Below, in pieces: positions 9,602 through 64,000 of a stretch of DNA of 64,000 nt; positions within the stretch are counted from its first letter, which is position 1; every line of letters begins with the position of its first letter. The notes beneath the pieces were generated by a model. It searched no databases. It saw only the letters and a program-made list of their open reading frames with translations, and was not told where the DNA came from. The position numbers were made by a program, and so were the translations under genes. This DNA is from Thermococcus pacificus (GTDB lineage Archaea; Methanobacteriota_B; Thermococci; Thermococcales; Thermococcaceae), in contig NZ_CP015102.1 in assembly GCF_002214485.1 (NCBI RefSeq), positions 1,488,001 to 1,552,000 of the forward strand. Reading direction: 5' to 3'.

Positions 9602-10720
9602 ATGGCTGGGGTTAGGCTGGAGAACGTGTGGAAGATATTTGGGGGGTTTGAGGCTGTTAAGGACATGAACCTTGACATTAAGGATGGGGAATTCATGATT
9701 CTCTTGGGCCCGAGTGGGTGTGGTAAAACAACCACGCTTAGGATGATAGCGGGTCTAGAAGAACCCAGCAAGGGGCAAATCTACATCGGCGACAAACTAG
9801 TCGCCGACCCAGAAAAAGGAGTCTTCGTGCCACCCAAAGATAGAGACATTGCCATGGTCTTCCAGAGCTATGCTCTCTACCCGCACATGACGGTTTACGA
9901 CAACATAGCCTTCCCACTAAAACTCAGGAAAGTTCCGAAGAGTGAGATTGACCAGCGTGTTAGAGAAGTTGCGGAAATGCTTGGGTTGAGTGAACTCCTG
10001 AACAGAAAACCCAGAGAGCTCAGTGGAGGTCAAAGGCAGCGTGTGGCTTTGGGGAGGGCTATAGTCAGGCGGCCCAAAGTCTTCCTCATGGACGAGCCGT
10101 TGAGTAACCTGGACGCTAAGTTGAGGGTTAAAATGCGTGCGGAATTGAAGAGACTCCAGAAGCAGCTTGGCGTGACAACGATTTACGTGACTCACGATCA
10201 GGTTGAAGCAATGACAATGGGCGATAGGATAGCAGTAATCAACCAGGGGCAGCTTCAGCAGGTTGGAACGCCGGAAGAGGTTTACGACAGGCCGGCTAAT
10301 ACCTTCGTGGCCGGCTTCATTGGAAGCCCGCCAATGAACTTCATGAGCGCGAGCATTACAGAGGAAGGCTTCGCGGACTTTGGGGAGTTCCAACTTAAAC
10401 TCCTGCCTGATCAGGTTGAAGTCCTCGAGGAGGCCGGCTTGATTGGGAAGGAAGTGATCTTCGGAATCCGCCCGGAGGACGTGTACGATGCGTTCTTCGC
10501 GCAGGTCAAGATTCCTGGGGAGAACATGGTCAGGGCGTTGGTTGAGATTATGGAGAACCTCGGTGGGGAGAAGGTTGTTCACCTGAGGGTTGGGGACGTT
10601 GCCCTCGTGGGTAAGTTCCCTGCGGAGTCGAAGGTCAGTGAGGGCGAGGAAGTGGACATAGTCTTTGATATGAAAAAAATCCACATCTTCGAGAAAGGAA
10701 GTGGAAAAGCGATATTCTGA
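9602..10720 (+). CDS. MalK-type sugar ABC transporter ATPase
   Basis: 372 residues. Walker A GPSGCGKTT, Q-loop VFQSYALYPHM, signature LSGGQRQR, Walker B VFLMDEPLSNLDAK and switch THDQ are all intact, followed by the C-terminal OB-fold regulatory domain (FGIRPEDV). It energises the MalF/MalG-type permeases encoded upstream. Start ATG 9602 follows GGGGTGAG; GTG 9593 overlaps the trmB stop. By eye its codon choice is somewhat different from the flanking genes, with more G/T wobble, consistent with a separate history. Confidence 0.92.
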   Translation: MAGVRLENVWKIFGGFEAVKDMNLDIKDGEFMILLGPSGCGKTTTLRMIAGLEEPSKGQIYIGDKLVADPEKGVFVPPKDRDIAMVFQSYALYPHMTVYDNIAFPLKLRKVPKSEIDQRVREVAEMLGLSELLNRKPRELSGGQRQRVALGRAIVRRPKVFLMDEPLSNLDAKLRVKMRAELKRLQKQLGVTTIYVTHDQVEAMTMGDRIAVINQGQLQQVGTPEEVYDRPANTFVAGFIGSPPMNFMSASITEEGFADFGEFQLKLLPDQVEVLEEAGLIGKEVIFGIRPEDVYDAFFAQVKIPGENMVRALVEIMENLGGEKVVHLRVGDVALVGKFPAESKVSEGEEVDIVFDMKKIHIFEKGSGKAIF

Positions 10721-11085
10721 ATTTCACCGGAAGATCCAGACGCTTTTCTTTCCTATTATCTCCTCCCTGCTCTTCTCTTCCTTTAGATACCGTTGACCAT
10801 TCAGAGGTACCTCATCTTCGCCGTAGCCCACGGATGGTTGTGGCTCTGAAAGCTCCCACACAAGGTCGCGGCCCCTGCATCATTCATAGGGACAAGCAAC
10901 TTCTTTGGGTTGGGTATTGTGGTGGCGATAGCTCTCTTCTTCTCCTGCGAGCGGAGGGCCAGGATAGCACACAACTTCAGGGGCAGGGGCGTGTAATAGC
11001 GCAAGTGAAAACCAGGATTTTGAAAGTTTTTTCACCTAATTTCTTTTAAACCCGGCCCTATCATCTCCGTATGGGGGTGAGGGGC
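10721..11085. other. Intergenic region with gene debris right of the sugar operon
   Basis: Contains short broken reading frames, for example a hydrophobic stretch [15 protein letters not shown] followed by HNFRGRGV and a stop at about 10993-10995. This looks like the C-terminal end of a membrane protein whose front is lost. It carries the right copy of the 26-bp repeat. The promoter of the glutaredoxin-like gene lies near its right end. Confidence 0.4.
10970..10995 (+). repeat. Right copy of a 26-bp repeat flanking the sugar operon
   Basis: Matches 3167-3192 with one mismatch, in the same orientation. It lies 250 bp beyond the stop of the MalK-type gene, inside gene debris ending HNFRGRGV. 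Direct repeats on both sides of the operon would be expected if it was inserted or excised by recombination at duplicated sequence. Confidence 0.7.
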
Positions 11086-18351: not shown

Positions 18352-19095
18352 TCACCCGATTACCGAGGAGAGGTAGTCGAAGAGGGGCTTAAGGAACGGG
18401 AATTCGGGAACCTGGGTGCTATCGGTAACTGTTTCACCGCTGTCCTCGTAGGCGTTTCTGCTGATGGTGTGGTCATCTTTATAGTAGTCATCGTTGTTGT
18501 CATCTCCATCCTCGTCTTTCTCGAAGTCTTCACTTGCAACAAGCTGCCCGTTCCAGTACTCCTTGACGTCGTCTATGTACATGTCGTAAGTGCAGTTGTC
18601 ATCCCATGCTCCAGAGTTCACCCGCTGAACCTTTTTTACGTTCGCTGGAAATTCTACCGTCGTAGTGGAATCAATTACGAACCTGACACTTGTCGTGGTC
18701 ATCTCTATTCTATACCTGTGGGGTTTGCTCATGTCCAGAGGAATGGTGGTGGAGTTAGTTGGAGTCTTTAGGAGTACCTCATTCTCTCCATACCAATATA
18801 TCGAGTAAGTATTATCATTGTTATTATTGCTGGTACCCTGAACCTCAAGTAGGGCGACGTAAGCACTTCCAGAGTAGTTAGTGACGAAGACAGTTTGCTC
18901 AACTGCAAAGACGTCGCCGTTTCCTAGTTGTTTGTTACCTTTGTGTATTTCAACGTAGTGACTCTTCATGTCATAGCTCCACACGTGGAGTACATTGCCA
19001 CTCATCTGGGCACCGCTAACGTTACCCAACCCCATAAGGATGAGCATGAGCGCGATTAAGGGAACTGCAACCTTCACTCTCTCAACACCAACCAT
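18352..19095 (-). CDS. Secreted surface protein with acidic, Asn/Asp-rich tail ending in a PEFP motif
   Basis: 247 residues. A signal peptide (VAVPLIALMLILMG, cleavage near VSGAQ) precedes a beta-rich domain with several N-glycosylation sequons (NYSG, NSTT, NCTY). The fold could be concanavalin-like, given DMSKPHRYRIEM, but this is uncertain. A stretch rich in Asp and Asn follows, then VPEFPFLKPLFDYLSSVIG at the end. PEF motifs mark some archaeosortase substrates, but the usual long helix and basic end are missing. ATG 19095 follows GGAGGTGAG. It is the first gene after promoter copy 1. Confidence 0.65.
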   Translation of the reverse strand: MVGVERVKVAVPLIALMLILMGLGNVSGAQMSGNVLHVWSYDMKSHYVEIHKGNKQLGNGDVFAVEQTVFVTNYSGSAYVALLEVQGTSNNNNDNTYSIYWYGENEVLLKTPTNSTTIPLDMSKPHRYRIEMTTTSVRFVIDSTTTVEFPANVKKVQRVNSGAWDDNCTYDMYIDDVKEYWNGQLVASEDFEKDEDGDDNNDDYYKDDHTISRNAYEDSGETVTDSTQVPEFPFLKPLFDYLSSVIG

Positions 19096-19124
19096 GTCTC
19101 TCACCTCCATAATCAATAGACAGT

Positions 19125-19185
19125 TTTGACTTTAAATAATCTTTAGTCAGACCTTCGAACGACCTATGTTAGGTTACCCTTATAA
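19125..19185 (-). promoter_or_regulatory. 61-bp conserved promoter/operator, copy 1
   Basis: Matches 21214-21274 at 55 of 61 positions, far above what unrelated intergenic DNA would show. Read on the minus strand it has a TTAGG-like element (TAAGGGTAACCTAA), TTCGAA, then the interrupted repeat GACT-N13-AGTC spanning a TATA-like TTATTTAAA. It lies 30 bp upstream of the secreted-protein start at 19095. Confidence 0.75.
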
Positions 19186-19264
19186 TCTTTTATCCCCAAA
19201 ATTGTCCAGTTTGTCCTCAAATCTGTCGAACCGCTTGAAAGGAAAATTACATGGGGGGACACAG

Positions 19265-20038
19265 TCAATCCCCGTAGAACTTCTCCTCGAAAACGTCTAT
19301 CCCGACCTCAAGGCTTTCCAGCCAGTCGAGGAACTTCCCGACGTTCTCGTCACTGAAGATGGCCCCATGCTGGGGTGCTATGACCTTCGGGTTTAGCTTT
19401 CTCACATGCCTCGCCCACGCCCTCAGTGCCTTTGTGGAGCTCATATAGCGCTTGTGAAAGCCCTCCATGTATTTGGCATGCTCATCGAAGTCTTCCACAA
19501 AGAGATACCACTCGCCCTCGGGAAAAGCCGCCGCACCTATGTCTGCACTGAACAGTATCCCGCTCTTCTCGTCGTAGAATGAGAAGTTCCCCGGACTGTG
19601 GAGGTAGTGGCTTGGAACGGCCTTTATCGTTGAGTTTCCGAGATTGAAACTCGAACCCTTGTCCGGAATACCTATCGTCCTCCCCGCGCTGAGAACTGCA
19701 AGGTGCGGGAGGAAACGAACCCAGAGTTCTGAGATGACGAACTTCGCCAGCGGGGCGTACTCGAACCAGAGATTTAGACCTGCTATGACGTCCGGATCCT
19801 GGTGGGAGTACATGAGGTACTTTATCCGGGTCGGCGGGACTATCGATGAGACGTTTTTAAGAACCCTGGAGAAGACGAAAAAGCCTCCGGGCTCGATCAG
19901 AGCGGCTTCGTTACCATCGACTACCAGATACTGATTGGTGAGAATCCCCTTCTCGTCCTCGGCTTCCTCTATGCCAAGCCAGTAGACCCTGTGTTCACCA
20001 TCATCATACAGGGGATAGCTGTTCATGTTCCTTATCAT
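19265..20038 (-). CDS. Metallo-beta-lactamase-fold di-iron protein (ODP/flavodiiron-like, no flavodoxin domain)
   Basis: 257 residues. HQDPDV is the H-x-D-x-D metal motif seen in oxygen-binding di-iron proteins, and VPSHYLHSPGNF, SADIGAA and APQHGA supply the remaining ligand positions. It lacks the C-terminal flavodoxin domain of flavodiiron oxygen reductases, so it may sense or bind oxygen or use a separate flavodoxin. AGGAGGTG precedes ATG 20038. It is the last gene of a three-gene operon under promoter copy 2. Confidence 0.8.
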   Translation of the reverse strand: MIRNMNSYPLYDDGEHRVYWLGIEEAEDEKGILTNQYLVVDGNEAALIEPGGFFVFSRVLKNVSSIVPPTRIKYLMYSHQDPDVIAGLNLWFEYAPLAKFVISELWVRFLPHLAVLSAGRTIGIPDKGSSFNLGNSTIKAVPSHYLHSPGNFSFYDEKSGILFSADIGAAAFPEGEWYLFVEDFDEHAKYMEGFHKRYMSSTKALRAWARHVRKLNPKVIAPQHGAIFSDENVGKFLDWLESLEVGIDVFEEKFYGD

Positions 20039-20845
20039 TCAAACACCTCCTATCGGGACCCACACGTTCACCATATAAGCTCCCTTTATCCCGGACGCTA
20101 TCTCAAGGGCCCTTCTCGCGTCCTCATCGTTTTCCACCTTCACGACCTCCACGCCTTCTGAAGTCCTGTGCTCTATCGCCAGTATTCTGCTCCCGTCAAG
20201 GAGAACCTTAAAGGAACTGCTTCCGTCGCTGGTTATTCCGGAAATGTAAAGGATTCTGTCCGGTATCGTGGCCCTGAGTTCACTTATGATGTCGAAGAGG
20301 CCCTTTTCGCCGATGATGTGGAGCCCGCTCTGAACCATTCTTGACCTGGAGAGGAAGCTCGCGACGCTCATTGGGTCTGCAAAGTCCACGTTTACCGCTA
20401 TGCTCTCTTTGGTACCCGCTGGAACTTGAACCTGCTCCTGAACCGGCCGGTTCTCGGCCATTTCCTTGAGTACTGACCCTATCTTCTCGACGAAGTCCTG
20501 GAGGGTCTTCCCGAGCCAGAACTCACCTTTTCCCTTGTAGGAGAGCTCGAGGACTGCGCTTGTGTTCTTCCGCCATTCTTTCAGCGTGACCACGAGGGAT
20601 ATGTGCCCCTTCTCACCTGTTCCGTCGTATATGTGGCTGTTGTAGTCCGAGTGGTATTCAAAGCGATAAACGTCCCTGAACTTGAAGATGAACCTGGGGA
20701 GCATTATCTCTGCCTTCAGGCCGTCCTTCATGCTCACTCTTACCACGTAGGGCCAATTGGTTATGAATGATGGAGCGTCGTTGAGAACCGCTTCAACTGC
20801 TTCCTTGGGGGCAGCTATCTCCACAGTGGTGTTTTTTCTTTTCAT
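20039..20845 (-). CDS. Two-domain protein with SRPBCC-like N-terminus, function unknown
   Basis: 268 residues. The first 140 read like a START/SRPBCC lipid-binding fold (TTVEIAAPKEAVEAVL, then alternating strands and a long helix ending VLKEMAENR). After a Pro/Val/Gln linker, the second part is an alpha/beta domain I do not recognise (FDIISELRATIPDRIL). The start overlaps the stop of the upstream gene (ATGA), and the di-iron protein gene begins right after its stop, so the three products probably work together. Confidence 0.6.
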   Translation of the reverse strand: MKRKNTTVEIAAPKEAVEAVLNDAPSFITNWPYVVRVSMKDGLKAEIMLPRFIFKFRDVYRFEYHSDYNSHIYDGTGEKGHISLVVTLKEWRKNTSAVLELSYKGKGEFWLGKTLQDFVEKIGSVLKEMAENRPVQEQVQVPAGTKESIAVNVDFADPMSVASFLSRSRMVQSGLHIIGEKGLFDIISELRATIPDRILYISGITSDGSSSFKVLLDGSRILAIEHRTSEGVEVVKVENDEDARRALEIASGIKGAYMVNVWVPIGGV

Positions 20846-21156
20846 AGCTGTTCCTCCAGAGCATTTTGAAGTTTAAGATATATCCCTTCTGGGCCTTCCC
20901 TTGGTTCAACGGGAACGATGAAGCTTACCTCGTTCCCCTCCCTGATGATAAGGGGCCTCTCTTCCGTGTGCAGAACCACGTCCATCTCGACCAGAGAAGC
21001 CACTCCGTTCAGGATCCTTGCCCTGCCAACGAGGTGCGGCACAGCCAGCTGTGAACCCTCGACTATCTTCCCCCACATTGAGTATATTGCCTCGAACGCT
21101 TTTGGTGCTAATATCGGCTTGCTCTTCAATCCAAATGAGTTTGTAACTACCTCCAT
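20842..21156 (-). CDS. Small hypothetical protein, first gene of the SRPBCC/di-iron operon
   Basis: 104 residues, alpha/beta, no membrane segment or cysteine. I do not recognise the family. It has strands such as IREGNEVSFIVPVEP and a C-terminal helix LQNALEEQL. ATG 21156 follows GGAGGTGAG; the ATG at 21171 precedes that site. Promoter copy 2 lies 58 bp upstream. Confidence 0.6.
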   Translation of the reverse strand: MEVVTNSFGLKSKPILAPKAFEAIYSMWGKIVEGSQLAVPHLVGRARILNGVASLVEMDVVLHTEERPLIIREGNEVSFIVPVEPREGPEGIYLKLQNALEEQL

Positions 21157-21213
21157 CCCACTCACCTCCATACGATCTCTCCTGGGAGATCGTTCCTAGT
21201 TATATCCACTATG

Positions 21214-21274
21214 TTTGACTTTAAATTATCTTTAGTCAGATCTTCGAACGACTCATGTTAGGTTGGCCTTATAA
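21214..21274 (-). promoter_or_regulatory. 61-bp conserved promoter/operator, copy 2
   Basis: Matches 19125-19185 at 55 of 61 positions and has the same order of elements: TTAGG-type element (TTAGGTTGGCCTTA on the plus strand), TTCGAA, and GACT-N13-AGTC around the TATA region. It stands between the archaeosortase stop and the three-gene operon starting at 21156. Confidence 0.75.
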
Positions 21275-21301
21275 GTATTTCCCAAAAAAATGGAAAAATC
21301 C

Positions 21302-21820
21302 TCAAAATTTGCTGGGTTTTGTTGAAGACCTCAGGCCCAGCAAAAATACATGGGCTATGAGAATAACTACGAGCAGGAACAGGAGGATGGGACCGACCGT
21401 GTAATGAAACGTATTGAATGCCCCCTCCCCGAATTCGTAGTAGAGATATATCGAGAAGAACACGCGAAGGATGTTCGCGATGTATATCGCTGAAACCCCA
21501 AACAGCCATTCCATTGGTTTCTTCTTAAGTCCTGGAAGGAGGAGGTATATGAGCGTGTAAAGCGTCATGCTGAAAGCTCCGCTGCACTGCCACGTTATCT
21601 CAAAGGACATCCTATCGGCGGGAACATAAATCTGCCCCCCAACGAGGTGGTTCTCTATCCCGAAGGTCTCCAGGAGTAAGTGTATGTTTGAAGCCTCAAT
21701 CCTTATGAGGGGCTTCCCCACCGCGAAGCCAATCAGCAATGTTACTATGGGAAACACCGTGAGATAGGCTGCCAGTATCAGAAGGTTTTTCCTCTCCCCC
21801 GACAACTTCATAGGTTCCAT
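21302..21820 (-). CDS. Archaeosortase/exosortase family protein
   Basis: 172 residues with five or six helices. The family's Cys-Arg-His triad is visible: WQCSGAFSMTLYT, YIANILRVFFSIYL and FNTFHYTVGPILLF. Exosortase-type enzymes cut C-terminal sorting signals of exported proteins in the membrane and attach the protein to a lipid or glycan. ATG 21820 follows GGGAGG and the N-terminus overlaps the upstream regulator gene by 125 bp, which is unusual. It is the last gene of a four-gene operon. Confidence 0.88.
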   Translation of the reverse strand: MEPMKLSGERKNLLILAAYLTVFPIVTLLIGFAVGKPLIRIEASNIHLLLETFGIENHLVGGQIYVPADRMSFEITWQCSGAFSMTLYTLIYLLLPGLKKKPMEWLFGVSAIYIANILRVFFSIYLYYEFGEGAFNTFHYTVGPILLFLLVVILIAHVFLLGLRSSTKPSKF

Positions 21821-22982
21821 CCTCCCGTTTCCTTACGAGGCCGTAGTTCTCCATTATAGTGCAGTTGTGATGAACCGTGGACTTGCTCAGGTTAAGCAGA
21901 CGGGCAAGCTCACTTACTCCCCTCGGCCTTTCCTTGAGGAGCTCGTAAATCCTTCTCCGCGTCTCGTTTTCCAGGAGGAAAAGTTTAATCGCCTCTTCTC
22001 TCTTTCCAACCGGGTAGAAGATTATAGTGTTGCCCACGGAGATTTCTTCGAGAAGCTTTGCCCTCGTGAGGACACGCAGGTGCCATCTTGCATTGGTCCT
22101 CGATATGCCAAATGTAGATGTCACATCTGTAAGAGTCGAATAACCCCTCGCCTTTATGTATCCGTATATTCCCTTTCTCGTGGTGTTCTGCAGAACCTGC
22201 CCGGGGGGTGTAAGAAAGCGGCCAATGACGATTATCGGGAGGGATTTAACCAGTTCCCGGAACTTTTGTACCTGGGGATTGTTTGAGGTTGCCACATATC
22301 CAGCCAGCGCAAGCGCTCCAAGGGCACCACCCACCAAAATAGCCTTCGATGGGCCTGCGTGTGAATAGTGCTTTATGAGTGCAACAACGAATTCGGGCAC
22401 GGCGGGGTTGAGGGTGTCTAGGTAGTAGGCCGATGGATTAATCCCCACCACCACGAGCTTTCCCCTTCCAAGGGGAATCTCCGTTACTATTGGAATTCCA
22501 TCCGATTCGAGGAGAACCTTTGATTTCCTGGCCTTTACAATTACAAGCCCGTACCTGTCGGAATCGTACCCGAACTCCTTAAACTTTAGGATATCGTTGG
22601 GCTCGACTGGTATTATCCCGGCCGATGTGTAATTTAAATGTATTCCAGCCAATTCTAAAATACCCTGGTTCCCCATTTCAACTGCCCTCAACGTGTTCAG
22701 TCCAACTATAACGGTTCTTCCATCTTTGGCGTCCCGAATGAGACTGGACGGGAGGTCTCTGTTGCTCTCATTTAAAAAAGCATAATTGATGTCAAGTGCA
22801 ACTATTAGATCCCCATCTGGTTCATTACTGAGGACAATTCCAGTACTATTTGAGATGGCGCGGTAAAGCGGGATATCCCCCGGATCTGAGGGAATGTAAA
22901 CTGCCGTAACGGCCGCAACCAGTGGTGAAAGGGTGAAGATGGCGACTGCAACAAGCACGAACAGGTGTGAGGCCTTTACCAT
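21696..22982 (-). CDS. Membrane-spanning regulator: extracytoplasmic GATase-like domain, TM helix, tandem winged helices
   Basis: 428 residues. An N-terminal signal/anchor is followed by a DUF4350/GATase-like region (GRTVIVGLNTLRAV, GRGKLVVVGINPSAYYLDTL) with N-glycosylation sequons. A TM helix ILVGGALGALALAGYVA near residue 220 comes next. The C-terminal half has two winged helices: TLTDVTSTFGISRTNARWHL, and SELARLLNLSKSTVHHNC with the wing REDGTYEVV. It looks like a one-component signal transducer reading an outside cue and binding DNA. The gene overlaps the archaeosortase gene at its 3' end and the GT2 gene by 7 bp at its 5' end. Confidence 0.75.
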   Translation of the reverse strand: MVKASHLFVLVAVAIFTLSPLVAAVTAVYIPSDPGDIPLYRAISNSTGIVLSNEPDGDLIVALDINYAFLNESNRDLPSSLIRDAKDGRTVIVGLNTLRAVEMGNQGILELAGIHLNYTSAGIIPVEPNDILKFKEFGYDSDRYGLVIVKARKSKVLLESDGIPIVTEIPLGRGKLVVVGINPSAYYLDTLNPAVPEFVVALIKHYSHAGPSKAILVGGALGALALAGYVATSNNPQVQKFRELVKSLPIIVIGRFLTPPGQVLQNTTRKGIYGYIKARGYSTLTDVTSTFGISRTNARWHLRVLTRAKLLEEISVGNTIIFYPVGKREEAIKLFLLENETRRRIYELLKERPRGVSELARLLNLSKSTVHHNCTIMENYGLVRKREDGTYEVVGGEEKPSDTGSLSHGVSHSNIADWLRGGEAPHKD

Positions 22983-24334
22983 CCCTGAGCCACCCCCCTG
23001 AGAAACCTCAACGTGGCATCCAGTTTTGCAAGAGAGAGTAGGGGGTTGTAGAAGAGGTAGTACAAGAAAATCGTGGGGATGTTTCTCAAAGCTTCCTTGG
23101 AACCCCTCTCAATGACCATAAGAGTACCACTCATGAAGACGCCTGGTATATACTGGATGAAGAATACAAAGAGAAACAGGAACACCATAATGTCTGGTGG
23201 CAGGTTTATGTCGGTTATCGATATTCCCAGGTAGTGTCTAAAAAGGACGATAACTGGCAGGAGAATTATTCCTGTGATCTGGATAACCGCCAGAACGTAT
23301 TCCAGCACAATTGAATGCAGGAACATGAAAATACCCTTCTCCCCATATTTTGGGTTTAGGATAAGGTCATCGTGCTTCCTTAAAACCTGAAGGCCGCCAT
23401 AGTACCAGCGTATCCTCTGCCTGTACAGTCTCCTCCAGCTCTGCTCCGGCTCAGTGTAAACCACGGCACCCGGTTCAAAATTTGAGTCAAGACCTGCTCT
23501 AAATGCTATAACCGTGAGGTCAAAATCCTCCGCCAGAGTGTCCTTTGGAATGGCCGGAAGTGATTTTATGAAATAGCCCTTGAACGCTGAGAATGCGCCG
23601 GGAATCACCAGCAGCCAGCCCAGGTAGCCTTGAATCCTTCTCCCTAACTCAAACGAATGGAGGAACTCTATCTCCTGGAATTTTTCAATCCAGTTTCCAA
23701 ATCGCCGCTCTATTCGTATAACTCCTGTTGAAATACCTACGAGGGAGCGTTCATAGAGGCTCTCCACTATTCTGCGCAGGGAATACCCGTTCCCAAAATA
23801 TGAATCCGCGTCCATCGTTATTATAACGTCCCCCTTCGCGGATTTTATGCCGTCTTCCAGAGATTGAGCCTTTCCGAGGTTCTTCTCGTGCCGGATTACC
23901 TTCACTCCATACCTCGACGCTATCTCGCCAGTCCCGTCCTCACTCCCGTCATCAACGATTATAACCTCCACAAGGTTGTAGGGATAGTCCTGATACTCTA
24001 TGCTCTCTATGAGCCGCTCTATGGTAAGGGCTTCATTGTGGGCGGGCACTACTATTGACACGCGGGGGTAGAAGCGGGGCGGTTTGATAAGTCCTTCATT
24101 CGACCGGTAATAGAGATAGAATATGAAATACGCAGTGTAGAGGAATATAATGAAAGCCCCCGTAAGGTAGAACAGATAACGAACGAATGAATAGACTGAG
24201 TATCTATCAACCGCACGTCCAAAAATGAACAGAACGGCCCTCCAACTGCTCCACTGGAGGAAAGAATAATCCAAATAGACAACATACGCGGAGATTATAA
24301 ACGCCGAGAGGTACGAAAGAACTTTTCTTCTCAT
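22976..24334 (-). CDS. Processive GT2 glycosyltransferase (polysaccharide synthase type)
   Basis: 452 residues. Two N-terminal helices, a GT-A domain and three or more C-terminal helices. Catalytic motifs of processive synthases are present: VPAHNEA, IIVDDGSEDGT, DADSYF (DXD-like), AEDFDLT (the TED-type Asp) and QRIRWYYGG (QxxRW). Related enzymes make cellulose, hyaluronan, chitin or poly-GlcNAc and push the chain through the membrane. The polymer here is unknown. Starts in an ATGA overlap with the upstream regulator and sits between two membrane regulators. Confidence 0.85.
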   Translation of the reverse strand: MRRKVLSYLSAFIISAYVVYLDYSFLQWSSWRAVLFIFGRAVDRYSVYSFVRYLFYLTGAFIIFLYTAYFIFYLYYRSNEGLIKPPRFYPRVSIVVPAHNEALTIERLIESIEYQDYPYNLVEVIIVDDGSEDGTGEIASRYGVKVIRHEKNLGKAQSLEDGIKSAKGDVIITMDADSYFGNGYSLRRIVESLYERSLVGISTGVIRIERRFGNWIEKFQEIEFLHSFELGRRIQGYLGWLLVIPGAFSAFKGYFIKSLPAIPKDTLAEDFDLTVIAFRAGLDSNFEPGAVVYTEPEQSWRRLYRQRIRWYYGGLQVLRKHDDLILNPKYGEKGIFMFLHSIVLEYVLAVIQITGIILLPVIVLFRHYLGISITDINLPPDIMVFLFLFVFFIQYIPGVFMSGTLMVIERGSKEALRNIPTIFLYYLFYNPLLSLAKLDATLRFLRGVAQGW

Positions 24335-25647
24335 ACTTCAAACCACCTCAACAAGGCACGAGTGGAATAAACTTCGTAGTCAAAGGGCATTTTTCTTATC
24401 TCAACGACACCATACCTTGACATTTCCCTGAGGAGCTGTAGAACTTCATAGGGCGGCATGTTCGAGGAACGAGCAAGGTCGAGGATTGTAACTCCTGGAT
24501 GAAGGGCAATTCTCTCCATCAAGCGGGGGTACATCTCCACTGCCCACGCTGCAACACCCTCCGATTCAAGTCCATGGAGCGTTATCAGGTAATCTCTACC
24601 ACCAAGACGGGAGATGTCAAGTATGCTAATCTTCCTCTTTAGCTTGAGGATGGCTATGCAGAACTTTAGGCGCCGGACTTTCTCCCCCATCTCATTTGAA
24701 AGCTCAGAAAGGGTAACACCCCTCATCATCGAGATGATTTCAAGAACGCTGGTACACCTCTTTCTCCGCTTAATGATGCCCCAGAATGGAATAAATGGAG
24801 CCGCGAAGAAAACCGTAAGTCCCAGGGGCATTAAGCCGAGATAAGCAAGGATTTCGAGGAGAATAAAAACAAGCAATCCCAGAGTAATTGGGTGCAGGAT
24901 AACCCTCTTCAGGAGAATAAGAGTCTTTTTTGTATTGCTGATTGTGGGTGGGTTTTTTCTCTCCTTCAAAGCTTCGCTGGAAACTTCCCGATATAGATCC
25001 ACAAAAGAGGGATTCCCCTCGACGTAGGCCTTTACCGGGTTGAACGTCATCAAAACTGCAACCCCCGAGCCATACGAGTTCAGAGTTATAGCGGGGTTGC
25101 CATTCCTATACCTCGCGATGACCTTCGCTCCTTCCGGTCTGATGATCACCGCCTGGTAGGTATCATTGTACGGATACACCCTTTCATTAAACACTATGTC
25201 CAAGTCTTCCCCGTCCTCGATAGGACTTTCCAGGCGCAATACTCTGACACCAAGAAGGGCATCTAGCTTTCTGCTCCAGCTCTGAGTGTAGGTGTTGAGG
25301 CCAATAACCAGAACGCCACCACTCTGAACGTACTCCGTTAATGCCCCTATCTCTCCTTCGCTCAGTCTTCCCCCCTCCGTCCACTGGACGTTGAGGTCAG
25401 GAATCCAGATTTCATCGTATTTGGAGAGATAAAGAATATCGGAAAGGGGAGAGCGGTCATCCGGGAGGTCTTTGCCAAGGTAGAGGATATCACCGTTATT
25501 ACCGAAGGAATTGGCCAGAGTAACGTCTTCCAGGTCGCTACAGACAAACAGGATTCTATAGCTTTGATTCTGAGGAGTGTTTGAGCTAACTAAGCCCGAG
25601 GACATCAGGAGGATTATTATCAGCACTATTGAAGCTCTCCGATTCAA
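24331..25647 (-). CDS. Membrane-spanning regulator: extracytoplasmic GATase-like domain, TM helices, C-terminal winged helix
   Basis: 438 residues. A signal peptide, then a ThuA/GATase-like domain (YRILFVCSDLEDV, YVQSGGVLVIGLNTY), two TM helices (ITLGLLVFILLEILAYL and GLTVFFAAPFIPFW), a basic KRRKR stop, then helices that look like winged-helix units (SMMRGVTLSELSNEMG; ITLDLARSS-like VTILDLARSSNMPPYEVLQL). The architecture repeats that of the protein at 21696. TTG 25647 follows GGGGGAAAG. It is the first gene of the archaeosortase operon and a candidate regulator of it. Confidence 0.7.
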   Translation of the reverse strand: MNRRASIVLIIILLMSSGLVSSNTPQNQSYRILFVCSDLEDVTLANSFGNNGDILYLGKDLPDDRSPLSDILYLSKYDEIWIPDLNVQWTEGGRLSEGEIGALTEYVQSGGVLVIGLNTYTQSWSRKLDALLGVRVLRLESPIEDGEDLDIVFNERVYPYNDTYQAVIIRPEGAKVIARYRNGNPAITLNSYGSGVAVLMTFNPVKAYVEGNPSFVDLYREVSSEALKERKNPPTISNTKKTLILLKRVILHPITLGLLVFILLEILAYLGLMPLGLTVFFAAPFIPFWGIIKRRKRCTSVLEIISMMRGVTLSELSNEMGEKVRRLKFCIAILKLKRKISILDISRLGGRDYLITLHGLESEGVAAWAVEMYPRLMERIALHPGVTILDLARSSNMPPYEVLQLLREMSRYGVVEIRKMPFDYEVYSTRALLRWFEV

Positions 25648-25742: not shown

Positions 25743-26555
25743 TCACTTTGGCATTTCCTTGATGTGGACGTCCATCTGCGGGAACGGAATCTCGATGCCT
25801 TCCTTCGTGTAGAGCTCGTATATGCCCTTCGTGAGGTCGCCCTTGACCGCCCAGTAGTCTTCGGTCTTTACCCATGCCCTCAACTGCAGATTGATTGACG
25901 AGTCAGCCAAAGCCGTTATAACAACGCTCGGCTCCGGATCCTTGAGAACCTTGGGGTGGTTCTTCATGAGGTCCATTGCCAGCTTTATCGCCCTGTCGAG
26001 GTCTGTGCCGTAGGCAACACCAACGTCAACGTCCACCCTCCTGGTCGGCATCCTGGTGTAGTTGGTTATGACGTTCCCCCAGACGAGCTTGTTCGGTATC
26101 GTAATCAGCACGTTGTCCGGTGTTAAGAGCTCGGTGCTCATTATGCCGACGCCGTTGACCTTGCCGGTTTTTCCCGCCACTTCAACGACTTCGCCCATGT
26201 CTATTGGCCTTAGAGCTGCAATCCACACGCCAGCTGCCAGGTTGGTGAGCGTGTCCTGCATGCCAAAGCCCAGGATGAGGCCTATCACCGCCGACAGGCC
26301 CATCACAACCGAGCCAACTTCAATCCCAAGCGCCCTGACCGCGAGCAGTATCACTGCAACGTAGAGGAGCGCGCTGAGGAACCTCCCAAGGAACTCCACG
26401 ACGAGGTCTGGAAGCTTTGTCTTCTTCAGCCCGCGCTTGAAGGAAGTAACGACTATCTTTGCCACGATCCAACCAACGACGAGGACTACAACCGCCGTGA
26501 TAATCTGAAGCGGCGTTATCCCGACGTACGGGAGCGGTTCATCAAACCCTACCAT
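25743..26555 (-). CDS. MscS-family small-conductance mechanosensitive channel
   Basis: 270 residues. Three N-terminal helices, the last rich in Gly and Ala (MGLSAVIGLILGFGMQDTLTN), which lines the pore, followed by the beta domain (IDMGEVVEVAGKTGKVNGVG) and the alpha/beta C-terminal domain. It releases solutes when turgor rises. ATG 26555 follows GGGGGGTGAT; the TTG at 26570 is less likely. It stands alone. Confidence 0.92.
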   Translation of the reverse strand: MVGFDEPLPYVGITPLQIITAVVVLVVGWIVAKIVVTSFKRGLKKTKLPDLVVEFLGRFLSALLYVAVILLAVRALGIEVGSVVMGLSAVIGLILGFGMQDTLTNLAAGVWIAALRPIDMGEVVEVAGKTGKVNGVGIMSTELLTPDNVLITIPNKLVWGNVITNYTRMPTRRVDVDVGVAYGTDLDRAIKLAMDLMKNHPKVLKDPEPSVVITALADSSINLQLRAWVKTEDYWAVKGDLTKGIYELYTKEGIEIPFPQMDVHIKEMPK

Positions 26556-26741
26556 GCCATCACCCCCCAATGTCTGCTATTTCATTATATACTTCATCAA
26601 CGTTTATATCCTTTCCCAAACTTAAAGCATTATTAGCCAGTTCTTCGAACGGAAACCAAGTGGAAAGGTATAAGTACGTAAAAAGGCAAGGAAGTATAAC
26701 CGGCTGGTATAAGCCGGAACTGTAGCCGTGGGGGTGGTCCG

Positions 26742-61549: not shown

Positions 61550-61906
61550 ATGCCAAGGGGAATGGGACAGGGCTGGGGCCGCGGAAGGGGCAGAAAAAGG
61601 AAGATGAGGATGATAGGCTTCATTCCTCAGGTTAGGCATTTCTATCCAGCACTGCCGCCCCTCGGACAGCCGAAGCCACCCATCTTCATGACGTACGAGG
61701 AGTTTGAGGCCCTTAGACTTGTCGATTACGAGGGTTTAACCCAGGAAGAGGCGGCAAAGAGGATGGGAGTCTCACGCGGCACCGTATGGAGGGCCCTCAG
61801 CTCCGCCAGAAAGAAAGTGGCCCAAATGATCGTCGAAGGCAGGGAGCTCGTGATCCTCCCGCAGGGCAACGAGGTTCTCAAGGAGACCACAAACGACGGG
61901 AAATGA
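61550..61906 (+). CDS. DUF134 family predicted DNA-binding protein
   Basis: 118 residues. A Gly/Arg-rich start (PRGMGQGWGRGRGRKRK) is followed by FYPALPPLGQP and a sigma-70 region 4-like HTH (LTQEEAAKRMGVSRGTVWRA). DUF134 genes sit beside NifX-like genes in many anaerobes and probably regulate them. Here it lies 3.2 kb from that cluster and is a candidate reader of one of the two palindromes. No strong ribosome site; TATA-like CCTATAAAAAG lies near 61517, so a short or absent leader is likely. Confidence 0.82.
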   Translation: MPRGMGQGWGRGRGRKRKMRMIGFIPQVRHFYPALPPLGQPKPPIFMTYEEFEALRLVDYEGLTQEEAAKRMGVSRGTVWRALSSARKKVAQMIVEGRELVILPQGNEVLKETTNDGK

Positions 61907-61981
61907 GTACTTGAATCTCAGAATTATGCGCCGATAGTTGTTCTTTGGACGAGTGAAGCCGTTGTGGCCCGCAATCGATTT

Positions 61982-61995
61982 TTAGGTTCCCCTAA
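61982..61995 (+). promoter_or_regulatory. Orphan TTAGG-CCTAA box downstream of the DUF134 gene
   Basis: TTAGGTTCCCCTAA has both outer arms exact and matches TTAGGTTAACCTAA at 12 of 14. No gene starts after it, so it is either the relic of a promoter or a chance match. Confidence 0.35.
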
Positions 61996-62094
61996 TTCCA
62001 TGTCGGATTGTATCTCTCGAATTTTTGAGTGAATTGTAACTCTTTTAAAAAGTTATTCAGATAAAGATATAAAACGTTAAAATATAACCATGAA

Positions 62095-62120
62095 TTAAAA
62101 TTTTAAACGTTAAAATTTTA
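62095..62120 (+). repeat. A/T palindromic repeat
   Basis: Two copies of TTAAAATTTTA separated by AACG-like bases, each self-complementary. A related AAACGTTAAAAT occurs at 62072 and 62105. It marks the most A/T-rich part of the window. Confidence 0.5.
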
Positions 62121-62736
62121 GTTTTTAATATAACTTCAGAAATATAATTGAAAACAAAAATACTCTTTAAATAGGTAAAAAATTCAAAAAACCTACTATT
62201 CCAGGAAATAAATTTTTGTCAAAATGTGCACAAACAGGCACCTAGTGGCCTTTAAAGCGGACCATCAGAGGATGTCGAGGAGAACAGACAATCCACTCAT
62301 AGACCCGATCCCGATCACACAGACCAAAAATGAATTACAACTAAAGGTGTTATTTGGGTGGGTGTGGGGGGCTGCAGGGGTTGTATGCCAGAGCCTCTGG
62401 GGAAAGCCCTGAAAGTCACAGAAAACTCCAGTTACTGGACCCCCATAGAGAGAAGCACCCTCCTGCCGAGTGGACAGTTCTATGAATCAGTGCATGCAAG
62501 CACCAGCAGGCGACGCTTCATGACCCTGCTCACACAGGGCATGTGAGCACGAGATCGCCAAAGGCTGCGTGCTGAAATCCTAGTCAAGAAAGAGGGCAGT
62601 ATGAGGAGAGCCAATGTGGCACATCTTCCGAGGCGGATAGCCGCGGGGATTAATTACGCTTACATATAGTTTTTGCATACTTGCAATATGCGTATTTCAG
62701 GGGGCGCCCCAGTTAAATGAGCAACTTTGTACGTAA

Positions 62737-62768
62737 GAATTAGATATAAGGCACATTATATCTAATTC
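62737..62768 (+). repeat. Perfect 13-bp inverted repeat with 6-base loop
   Basis: Arms GAATTAGATATAA and TTATATCTAATTC enclose GGCACA. A 13-bp perfect stem is unlikely by chance. It follows GGGGCGCCCC at 62701-62710 and a GCATA/TATGC repeat near 62675-62691, so three inverted repeats lie within 95 bp. Confidence 0.7.
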
Positions 62769-63183
62769 TCGCGAACATAAAAGTACATTAAATCGGGAGG
62801 AGGTGAACGCAAGCTCGAAAGCTGATTGCAGTAATTCTGACTATCTAAGCCGCAACCTCTTGTCATGACTTAGAAGACCACACTTGCAAAGAGCCAGCAG
62901 GTGGTAAATCAGTGTCCCATTAGCTTGAGGTGAACCCTCGTGTCTTTGTGTCAACGCCAAAACAGTGCAGGTGGGCAACATCTCCCGTGTGAAGGGAAGA
63001 TATTATAAATCGCTGCCGATGACTGGAATATAAAAAGATTAACTCAGTTTGTGATGTTGAGAGTTAGTCTCTGGTATAGGTCACAGACAGGGAACTAGTA
63101 AAGGGGTCTAGTAAAATGCCGCTGACTCGGCCAGTCGGTAGAGGATCCAGGAAGTATTAACACACTGGAGCCGAGGGAATACA

Positions 63184-63405
63184 TTAACGTGCAATCTCAG
63201 CATTCACACATAGTTTTGTCTTGAGGTACTCGTTAGACATCTTATCGGCACACACCAACCACATCATGACCACCTTTAATTGTAACCCAATTTTGCGATA
63301 AAGATGCCGGCTCTCACAGTTCAAAAGCCAGTATCCTGAAAAGTTCAAGTGTTCCTTATTTTGGACACCCTGAACGGGGTTCTTCATCCGAATAATTATA
63401 TGCAT
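63184..63405 (-). CDS. Doubtful small open frame in the non-coding region
   Basis: 73 residues, starting at an ATG without a clear ribosome site. The mixed, plausible composition (HLNFSGYWLLNCESRHLYRK, KMSNEYLKTKLCVNAEIAR) hints at a real or former protein, perhaps the tail of a transposase-like gene. I do not recognise it, and codon use differs from that of the surrounding genes. Confidence 0.25.
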   Translation of the reverse strand: MHIIIRMKNPVQGVQNKEHLNFSGYWLLNCESRHLYRKIGLQLKVVMMWLVCADKMSNEYLKTKLCVNAEIAR

Positions 63406-63678
63406 TGTACGAATATTACTATCAAAAACAGTTGAAAAATAGAAAATGCTAATATTATCAGTAGTGATTTTAACATATCCAAATCCATATAATATAGTTA
63501 ATGTTCAGAAGTTGTATTGACAGCGGCTTATTAAGATGTGTAGAAATAGATTCATTAAAAGTAATTCCATCAAAATCTCAAGAAGTCAAAAATCATTGAA
63601 AATTCTGAGAGTCGATCCGCACATGAATGTAGAATGAGTAAAAGAGAAGGAAAAGGCTAGAAAAAGATATTAAAGCCC

Positions 63679-64000
63679 TTAACTATCTTCTTCGCGCTCT
63701 TTCCCCTCTATGAAAGCAATTACACTATCCACTATCTGCGGCGCCAGCCCAATGTAGTTCTCAGGCTTTAGGGAGGCTATATCATCATCGCTGAGGAACT
63801 TCCTAACTTCCTCGCTCTCCTTTACGACCTCGAGGAGGTCCCTCCCCTCGCGGAAGGCCTTCATAGCTAATCTCCTCACGAGTTCATGCGCCTCCTGCCT
63901 CCCCATGCCCTTCTCAGCGAGCTTGAGCATCAGTGGTTCGGCCATTATCAGGTTGTTCGTCATGTAAAGGTTGCGCTCTATGTTCTCGGGGAAGAACTCA
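63679..64000 (-). CDS. purB: Adenylosuccinate lyase, C-terminal part (gene runs off the window)
   Basis: 107 C-terminal residues are visible: FFPENIERNLYMTNNLIMAE, then GMGRQEAHELVRRLAMKA, typical of domain 3 of PurB. The enzyme releases fumarate from adenylosuccinate and from SAICAR in purine synthesis. The stop is at 63679; the start lies beyond 64000. Confidence 0.92.
   Translation of the reverse strand, partial: EFFPENIERNLYMTNNLIMAEPLMLKLAEKGMGRQEAHELVRRLAMKAFREGRDLLEVVKESEEVRKFLSDDDIASLKPENYIGLAPQIVDSVIAFIEGKEREEDS

Follow-up and report, generated by a model that had tools for sequence, protein, structure and literature searches.

An ArtF archaeosortase cassette of Thermococcales with a candidate dedicated substrate

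Results

A six-gene cassette conserved in Thermococcales

We analyzed a stretch of 64,000 nucleotides of the Thermococcus pacificus genome (NZ_CP015102.1, assembly GCF_002214485.1, positions 1,488,001-1,552,000 of the forward strand; hereafter the window), which carries the gene of an archaeosortase, ArtF, together with those of a membrane glycosyltransferase (GT2), two membrane-bound winged-helix proteins (HTH1 and HTH2), a secreted protein (SEC) and a PTPS-related membrane protein (PTPS) (Table 1). All of the open reading frames (ORFs) listed in an earlier annotation made from the DNA alone, referred to here as the original prediction, were confirmed at their coordinates and strand. GT2 was searched for across the order Thermococcales (94 genomes), and up to 20 kb were fetched around its close orthologues (genomes and loci are denoted below by G and L numbers, respectively). 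Some of the genomes are metagenome-assembled and are incomplete or slightly contaminated (G133 is 79% complete, and G060 has 6% contamination).

The order HTH1–GT2–HTH2–ArtF–SEC–PTPS is fixed in nine Thermococcales genomes; PTPS is missing from the cassette of G014, in which the remaining five core genes are kept in order. The repetition of an identical gene order in nine genomes goes far beyond what chance would give. The original prediction had singled out the first four genes and proposed their co-occurrence as a check. HTH1, GT2, HTH2 and ArtF indeed occur together in the nine genomes, are not routinely scattered, and the catalytic residues of ArtF are intact in the alignment. SEC and PTPS had been assigned to a nearby, additional operon and turned out instead to be core members, so that the conserved unit comprises six genes and is larger and better defined than was proposed. 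The set of genomes with HTH2 is identical to that with ArtF (exactly nine of the 94). Since the cassette genes are linked, this co-occurrence reflects inheritance as a block and is not independent evidence of function.

HTH1 orthologues were detected in all nine cassettes and, beside GT2 only, in G129 and at a second locus of G133 (G133:C222). These ArtF-less pairs (L055, 9446-12171, in G129; L057, 2858-4893, in G133) are convergent with a hydrogenase/complex I-like operon, and the gene of an MscS channel adjoins the pair in G129. The pair in G129 and G133 is the stand-alone form of the glycosyltransferase half. Because HTH1–GT2 is found alone, we regard the cassette as built of two halves, HTH1–GT2 and HTH2–ArtF–SEC(–PTPS), each of which seems to have its own HTH protein.

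Table 1. Features of the cassette and its surroundings in the window (positions are those of the window)
Feature	Position	Strand	Remark
HTH1	24331..25647	-	N-terminal signal/anchor, GATase/Glyco_hydro_42M-like ectodomain, membrane segment(s) 242-293, C-terminal winged-helix region
GT2, processive-type membrane glycosyltransferase (PgaC/IcaA-like)	22976..24334	-	DxD, ED, QxxRW
HTH2, HTH1 paralogue (strong winged helix of the ArsR type)	21696..22982	-	present in exactly the nine ArtF genomes
ArtF archaeosortase	21302..21820	-	TIGR04293; Cys79/Arg119/His139
SEC, secreted laminin-G/concanavalin-like protein	18352..19095	-	putative sole ArtF substrate
VPEFPF codons of SEC	18394..18411	-	not repeated elsewhere in the genome
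PTPS_related (PF10131) multi-pass membrane protein, 823 residues	15867..18338	-	PF10131, 1e-64
Promoter element upstream of SEC (TCGTTCGAAGGTCTGACTAAAGATTATTTAAAG)	19130..19162	-	
Promoter element upstream of the P104 module	21219..21251	-	
Promoter element upstream of MscS	26620..26652	-	
MscS channel directly upstream of HTH1	25743..26570	-	shares the promoter element
P104, first gene of the inserted module (outside the core)	20842..21156	-	
'SRPBCC' protein of the inserted module	20039..20845	-	no family match
ODP-type di-iron metallo-beta-lactamase-fold protein of the inserted module	19265..20038	-	5.7e-73

ArtF

The archaeosortase of the window scored 171.8 bits against TIGR04293 and is a member of this family (cut-off of 150), the cut-off being also exceeded in eight genomes and in G133. 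Outside Thermococcales, no ArtF above the cut-off was found among 121 relatives, and a profile search in 115 genomes of the phylum recovered the same nine together with one weak, distant match. Cys79, Arg119 and His139 are invariant in the alignment of nine orthologues, in agreement with the claim that the enzyme bears Cys, Arg and His in the positions of the family. The second-best specific family of ArtF is XrtG (E-value of 9.4e-9). The entry of the TIGR04293 model holds no information on targets or neighbours, and, to our knowledge, no ArtF target has been described so far. In the literature, for which our check was incomplete, we found neither a described ArtF target nor a paper that uses the name artF for the family.

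The secreted protein SEC and its invariant tail

SEC is encoded by the next core gene after artF in every cassette. Its ORF extends to 19116, and the ATG at 19095, which follows GGAGGTGA, is the likelier start. The protein consists of an N-terminal signal/anchor segment, a jelly roll of the laminin-G/concanavalin type and a tail, and its C-terminal end reads VPEFPFLKPLFDYLSSVIG. Every SEC copy is closed by VPEFPFL and a short tail, the latter predicted as a short helix. VPEFPFL is invariant in all nine copies and, with seven residues, constitutes the longest invariant run in SEC, a length reached in 17 of 100,000 shuffles of the conserved columns. Each ArtF genome contains the codon pattern of VPEFPF a single time, invariably at the C-terminus of SEC, and the synonymous codons differ between genomes. 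Thus, SEC is the best candidate for the sole ArtF substrate, and on the grounds of this distribution it is probably the only target of the enzyme.

Two further interpretations of the motif were rejected. A sorting tag shared by multiple proteins was ruled out by the single place per genome; the only match in G129 is out of frame. VPEF beside the transmembrane segment of HTH2 was considered as a second ArtF site and found in only three of the nine HTH2 copies. As for the assignment of SEC to the PEP/PEF-CTERM proteins, the short C-terminal motif is present while a transmembrane helix, a basic tail and a model match are not, and under the customary definition SEC does not belong to them. A PEF-CTERM signal consists of the motif, then a transmembrane helix, then a basic cluster.

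Comparison of the SEC of the window (18352-19095) with those of L048-L050 and L051-L054 revealed two types of the core. The window core is 50-54% identical to one type and 23-28% to the other, and the two ends match the other core type, with identities of 72-75% in the signal peptide (closest copies) and 71-86% in the tail. The window SEC is a mosaic, which suggests that the surface-exposed domain has undergone recombination. The ends being kept while the exposed core is exchanged is the pattern expected of export and processing signals.

GT2 and PTPS

In GT2, the motifs D175-A-D177, E269-D270 and Q306-xx-R309-W310 are kept without change across nine orthologues, which bears out the prediction of a synthase with intact DXD, ED and QxxRW. 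Transmembrane helices flank the motifs on both sides as in processive synthases. The best NCBIfam match was PgaC/IcaA (TIGR03937; E-value of 1.3e-40, 139.7 bits against the equivalog cut-off of 422), followed by the XrtG-associated TIGR03111 (99.7 bits against the cut-off of 363.95), to which GT2 is related without being a member. No genes for polymer export, deacetylation or other steps of polysaccharide metabolism were found within the conserved cassette. Of the surface polymer proposed originally, the likeness of GT2 to processive synthases stands, while no polymer-specific gene accompanies it in the cassette, and a polymer would be an extrapolation from GT2.

PTPS had been described correctly as a PTPS-related membrane protein (Table 1); its C-terminal regions are GATase-like and a beta-sandwich. 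YfhO was matched by three of seven PTPS orthologues (best E-value of 6e-10), and proteins of the PF10131/YfhO type are linked to the GT-C fold. PF10131 membership and the YfhO matches together make a GT-C-type glycosyltransferase likely. At 9632-10983 and 4730-7128 of L052 (G036), both GT2 and PTPS are broken into two reading frames, for which decay, phase variation and sequencing error are alternative explanations.

HTH1 and HTH2

Two proteins with a GATase-like part, a transmembrane segment and a helix-turn-helix had been predicted, and both were recovered. HTH1 and HTH2 are homologous over 343 columns, most of their length (hhalign probability of 94.6%, E-value of 6.9e-8). The ectodomain of HTH1 matches Glyco_hydro_42M (5.3e-10). 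Its hydrophobic stretch spans 52 residues, which leaves the topology uncertain. In HTH2, the layout of an extracytoplasmic domain, a transmembrane segment and a C-terminal winged helix (HTH_20, 1.8e-18) is clear; the winged helix is weak in the window copy of HTH1, with HTH_24 being matched in four of ten HTH1 orthologues. The last ~40 residues of HTH2 overlap artF and are unconserved. We consider both to be putative membrane-bound winged-helix regulators with predicted DNA binding.

A promoter element shared with MscS

A conserved element, GTTCGAAnnnnnGnCTAA, adjoins a presumed TATA box and precedes SEC, MscS, the P104 module described below and, in two genomes, HTH1. MscS is the same neighbour in five of the nine cassettes as well as in G129. 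At three or fewer mismatches, both window copies of TCGTTCGAAGNTCTGACTAAAG are the sole copies in the genome, and none is expected in shuffles of the window. A shorter exact pattern gave 14 sites across the 94 genomes, namely seven upstream of MscS, four of SEC and two of P104, and one elsewhere. The profile built from 22 sites recovered 25 sites at E-values below 1e-3, followed by a gap to the background; most of these belonged to the training set, except the MscS sites of G005 and G029. With the exception of the weakest, all of the profile sites lie upstream of MscS, SEC, P104 or HTH1. The element abuts what we take to be the BRE (B recognition element)/TATA box, as the site of an activator would. 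Where the cassette adjoins MscS, HTH1–ArtF may be transcribed from the MscS promoter as well.

All nine cassettes have the element in front of SEC; in L051 and L052, where the cassette lies away from MscS, HTH1 has a copy of its own. It is also present at MscS in G010, G029, G042 and G069, genomes that possess neither HTH1 nor HTH2, so that another factor must read it there. Thus, the element is not supported as a site for HTH1 or HTH2, and neither is the self-regulation proposed originally, as the only conserved element found occurs also at MscS in genomes lacking the two proteins.

Discussion

A possible route from SEC to the cell surface

We read the locus as a dedicated-substrate archaeosortase cassette in archaea, in which ArtF acts on SEC with the aid of glycan partners, and assign to this reading a probability of about 0.5. 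The anatomy of the cassette is shown by the sequences, and the scheme that we infer from it is conditional in each enzymatic and sensory step, including the role of SEC as the substrate, the reactions involved, the kind of glycan and the sensing by the HTH proteins. SEC would be exported via its signal peptide with the laminin-G-like domain facing outward. ArtF, as a membrane protease/transpeptidase of the Cys-Arg-His type, would recognize VPEFPFL at the extreme C-terminus of SEC, cut there and attach the product to a lipid or glycan carrier. GT2 at the cytosolic face and PTPS, a putative YfhO-type GT-C protein, on the outside would make and transfer a glycan that SEC is joined to, carries or binds. 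HTH1 and HTH2, each with a sugar-enzyme-like ectodomain, a membrane anchor and a cytoplasmic winged helix, would report on the product or the state of the envelope and adjust expression, HTH1 being paired with the GT2 module and HTH2 with the ArtF/SEC module. A separate factor at GTTCGAAnnnnnGnCTAA would tie the cassette and MscS into one envelope or osmotic regulon. More tentatively, at somewhat below even odds, ArtF may read a minimal signal (VPEFPFL and a short helix, with neither a transmembrane anchor nor a basic tail) on a single lectin-like substrate, each half of the cassette having its own membrane-bound winged-helix sensor; the range of proteins open to processing by exosortase-family enzymes would then be broader than the present rules allow.

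Several observations weigh against the reading of a dedicated-substrate cassette. The SEC tail after PEFP is 14-17 residues long, with a mean hydropathy of 0.75-1.19 (around 1) and a net charge of -2 to +1; no basic cluster was seen in the tail and no C-terminal transmembrane helix was predicted in the nine SEC proteins, nor did these match any NCBIfam sorting-signal model at E-values up to 10. The generic PgaC/IcaA model fits GT2 better than the model associated with XrtG does, and the AlphaFold model of PTPS (mean predicted local distance difference test score, pLDDT, of 42.7) is too poor for a comparison with the GT-C fold. The absence of PTPS from G014 and the frameshifts in both GT2 and PTPS of G036 may mean that the glycosyltransferases are dispensable or that these copies are decaying. 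Finally, the HTH1–GT2 pair exists in G129 and G133:C222 without ArtF.

Alternative explanations

GT2 and PTPS might form a pair similar to the glycosylation pair CsbB/YfhO: GT2 would charge polyprenyl phosphate and PTPS would decorate SEC or the S-layer, with no polymer being made and the archaeosortase only anchoring SEC. The YfhO matches of the PTPS orthologues and the lack of polysaccharide genes in the conserved cassette are consistent with such a pair. On the other hand, GT2 has QxxRW, transmembrane helices on both sides and PgaC/IcaA as its best NCBIfam match, and we regard this possibility as rather unlikely.

In another reading, SEC is not the ArtF target: its conserved tail would be a docking helix or a motif that binds another envelope protein, and ArtF would act on a different protein or directly on a lipid-linked glycan. 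In favour of this are the short helix predicted for the tail and the lack, compared with known signals, of a transmembrane helix and basic residues. Against it, no ArtF genome has VPEFPF outside SEC, PEFP resembles the known PEF-type motif, and the core gene that follows artF is that of SEC in all cases; we consider a target other than SEC unlikely.

Autoregulation, with the shared element as the binding site of HTH1 and/or HTH2, would account for its presence at SEC in every cassette and at HTH1 in L051 and L052, but is improbable given its occurrence at MscS in the four genomes without either protein and, conversely, given G129, which has HTH1 and no element at MscS.

The trimming of HTH2 (or HTH1) by ArtF, which would free the winged helix and put a surface glycan locus under a switch based on regulated proteolysis, fits the adjacency of HTH2 and ArtF (overlapping in the window and strictly co-inherited in 9/9) and the retention of HTH1–GT2 in G129, where ArtF and HTH2 are both absent, but it is very doubtful, as no conserved sorting-signal-like motif lies at the membrane boundary of HTH2 (VPEF is there in 3/9) and the unique tail of SEC would be left unexplained.

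Comparison with known systems

The dedicated-substrate reading has its nearest known counterpart, in our view, in the XrtG system of Gram-positive bacteria, the common logic apparently being one substrate, one sortase and two glycosyltransferases. The set of Lactiplantibacillus plantarum comprises one protein with a Firmicu-CTERM sorting signal, XrtG and two associated glycosyltransferases (PMC12854382). Similarly, SEC, ArtF, GT2 and PTPS are adjacent core genes, with SEC as the putative bearer of a sorting signal and PTPS in the putative role of a glycosyltransferase. In contrast, ArtF belongs to another exosortase family (35.4 bits against TIGR03110, cut-off of 102.75), the archaeal cassette adds two membrane-bound HTH proteins and the PF10131 protein, and SEC has no Firmicu-CTERM signal. 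Three plasmids of lactobacilli and enterococci were checked for XrtG cassettes with a negative outcome: two carried genes of the PgaC/IcaA type, and on the third a glycosyltransferase gene stood alone among genes for metal resistance.

In carrying a PEFP-like motif close to its C-terminus, the secreted SEC recalls the PEF-CTERM/archaeosortase C (ArtC) system, from which SEC differs in having no transmembrane helix, basic tail or model match, and ArtF in reaching only 28 bits against the ArtC model. ArtA possesses a Cys-Arg-His catalytic triad and has many substrates with tripartite signals. ArtF resembles it as an archaeal Cys-Arg-His membrane enzyme and differs in having one candidate substrate with a truncated signal. 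Haloarchaeal ArtA acts on the C-terminal signals of PGF-CTERM proteins and is linked to lipid anchoring (PMC7157517). PgaC/IcaA and CsbB/YfhO share with the cassette the architecture of GT2 and a YfhO-like partner in PTPS, respectively, whereas the cassette is archaeal, contains no ica/pga partners and is coupled to an archaeosortase.

The original prediction knew of no described archaeal system with this gene set. The enzyme family had already been named (ArtF, TIGR04293); what is new here is the cassette as such, a probable substrate whose signal is truncated, the pairing of two membrane-bound HTH proteins and the putative regulon. A candidate ArtF target is now available, namely one co-inherited protein with an invariant tail in a culturable group of hyperthermophiles. 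Should the tail prove to be processed, enzymes of this class do not require a transmembrane helix or a basic tail to recognize a signal. An archaeal parallel to XrtG would suggest that the coupling of a dedicated surface protein to a pair of glycosyltransferases recurs in both domains. The promoter element, in turn, predicts a small envelope/osmotic regulon under a separate factor.

Other features of the window

Remote from the cassette, window positions 61900-63680 hold a non-coding stretch of ~1.7 kb with A+T-rich edges, in which neither an ORF of at least 80 residues, a tRNA nor an Rfam match was detected, and which contains one weak two-copy repeat only.

P104–SRPBCC–ODP lies between ArtF and SEC in the window and G003 only (two of the nine cassettes), and relatives of its middle gene ('SRPBCC') were identified in 34 of the 94 genomes. 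Thus, the SRPBCC/di-iron pair, which had been placed in a nearby operon, belongs to a separate, widespread module and was rejected as part of the system. The label SRPBCC received no support from Pfam or NCBIfam matches, and the di-iron protein was confirmed as one of the ODP type. At L093/L138 (G042:C1, ~164600), the module carries the promoter element in a genome without an ArtF cassette, so that the element may have come to the locus with the insert or may have been shared beforehand. The 5' leader of P104 holds, just before the ribosome-binding site, the perfect inverted repeat ACGATCTC-CCAG-GAGAGATCGT (one extra base; window positions 21170-21200), possibly a leader hairpin of the inserted module, and a similar sequence is present in L051 near 10690.

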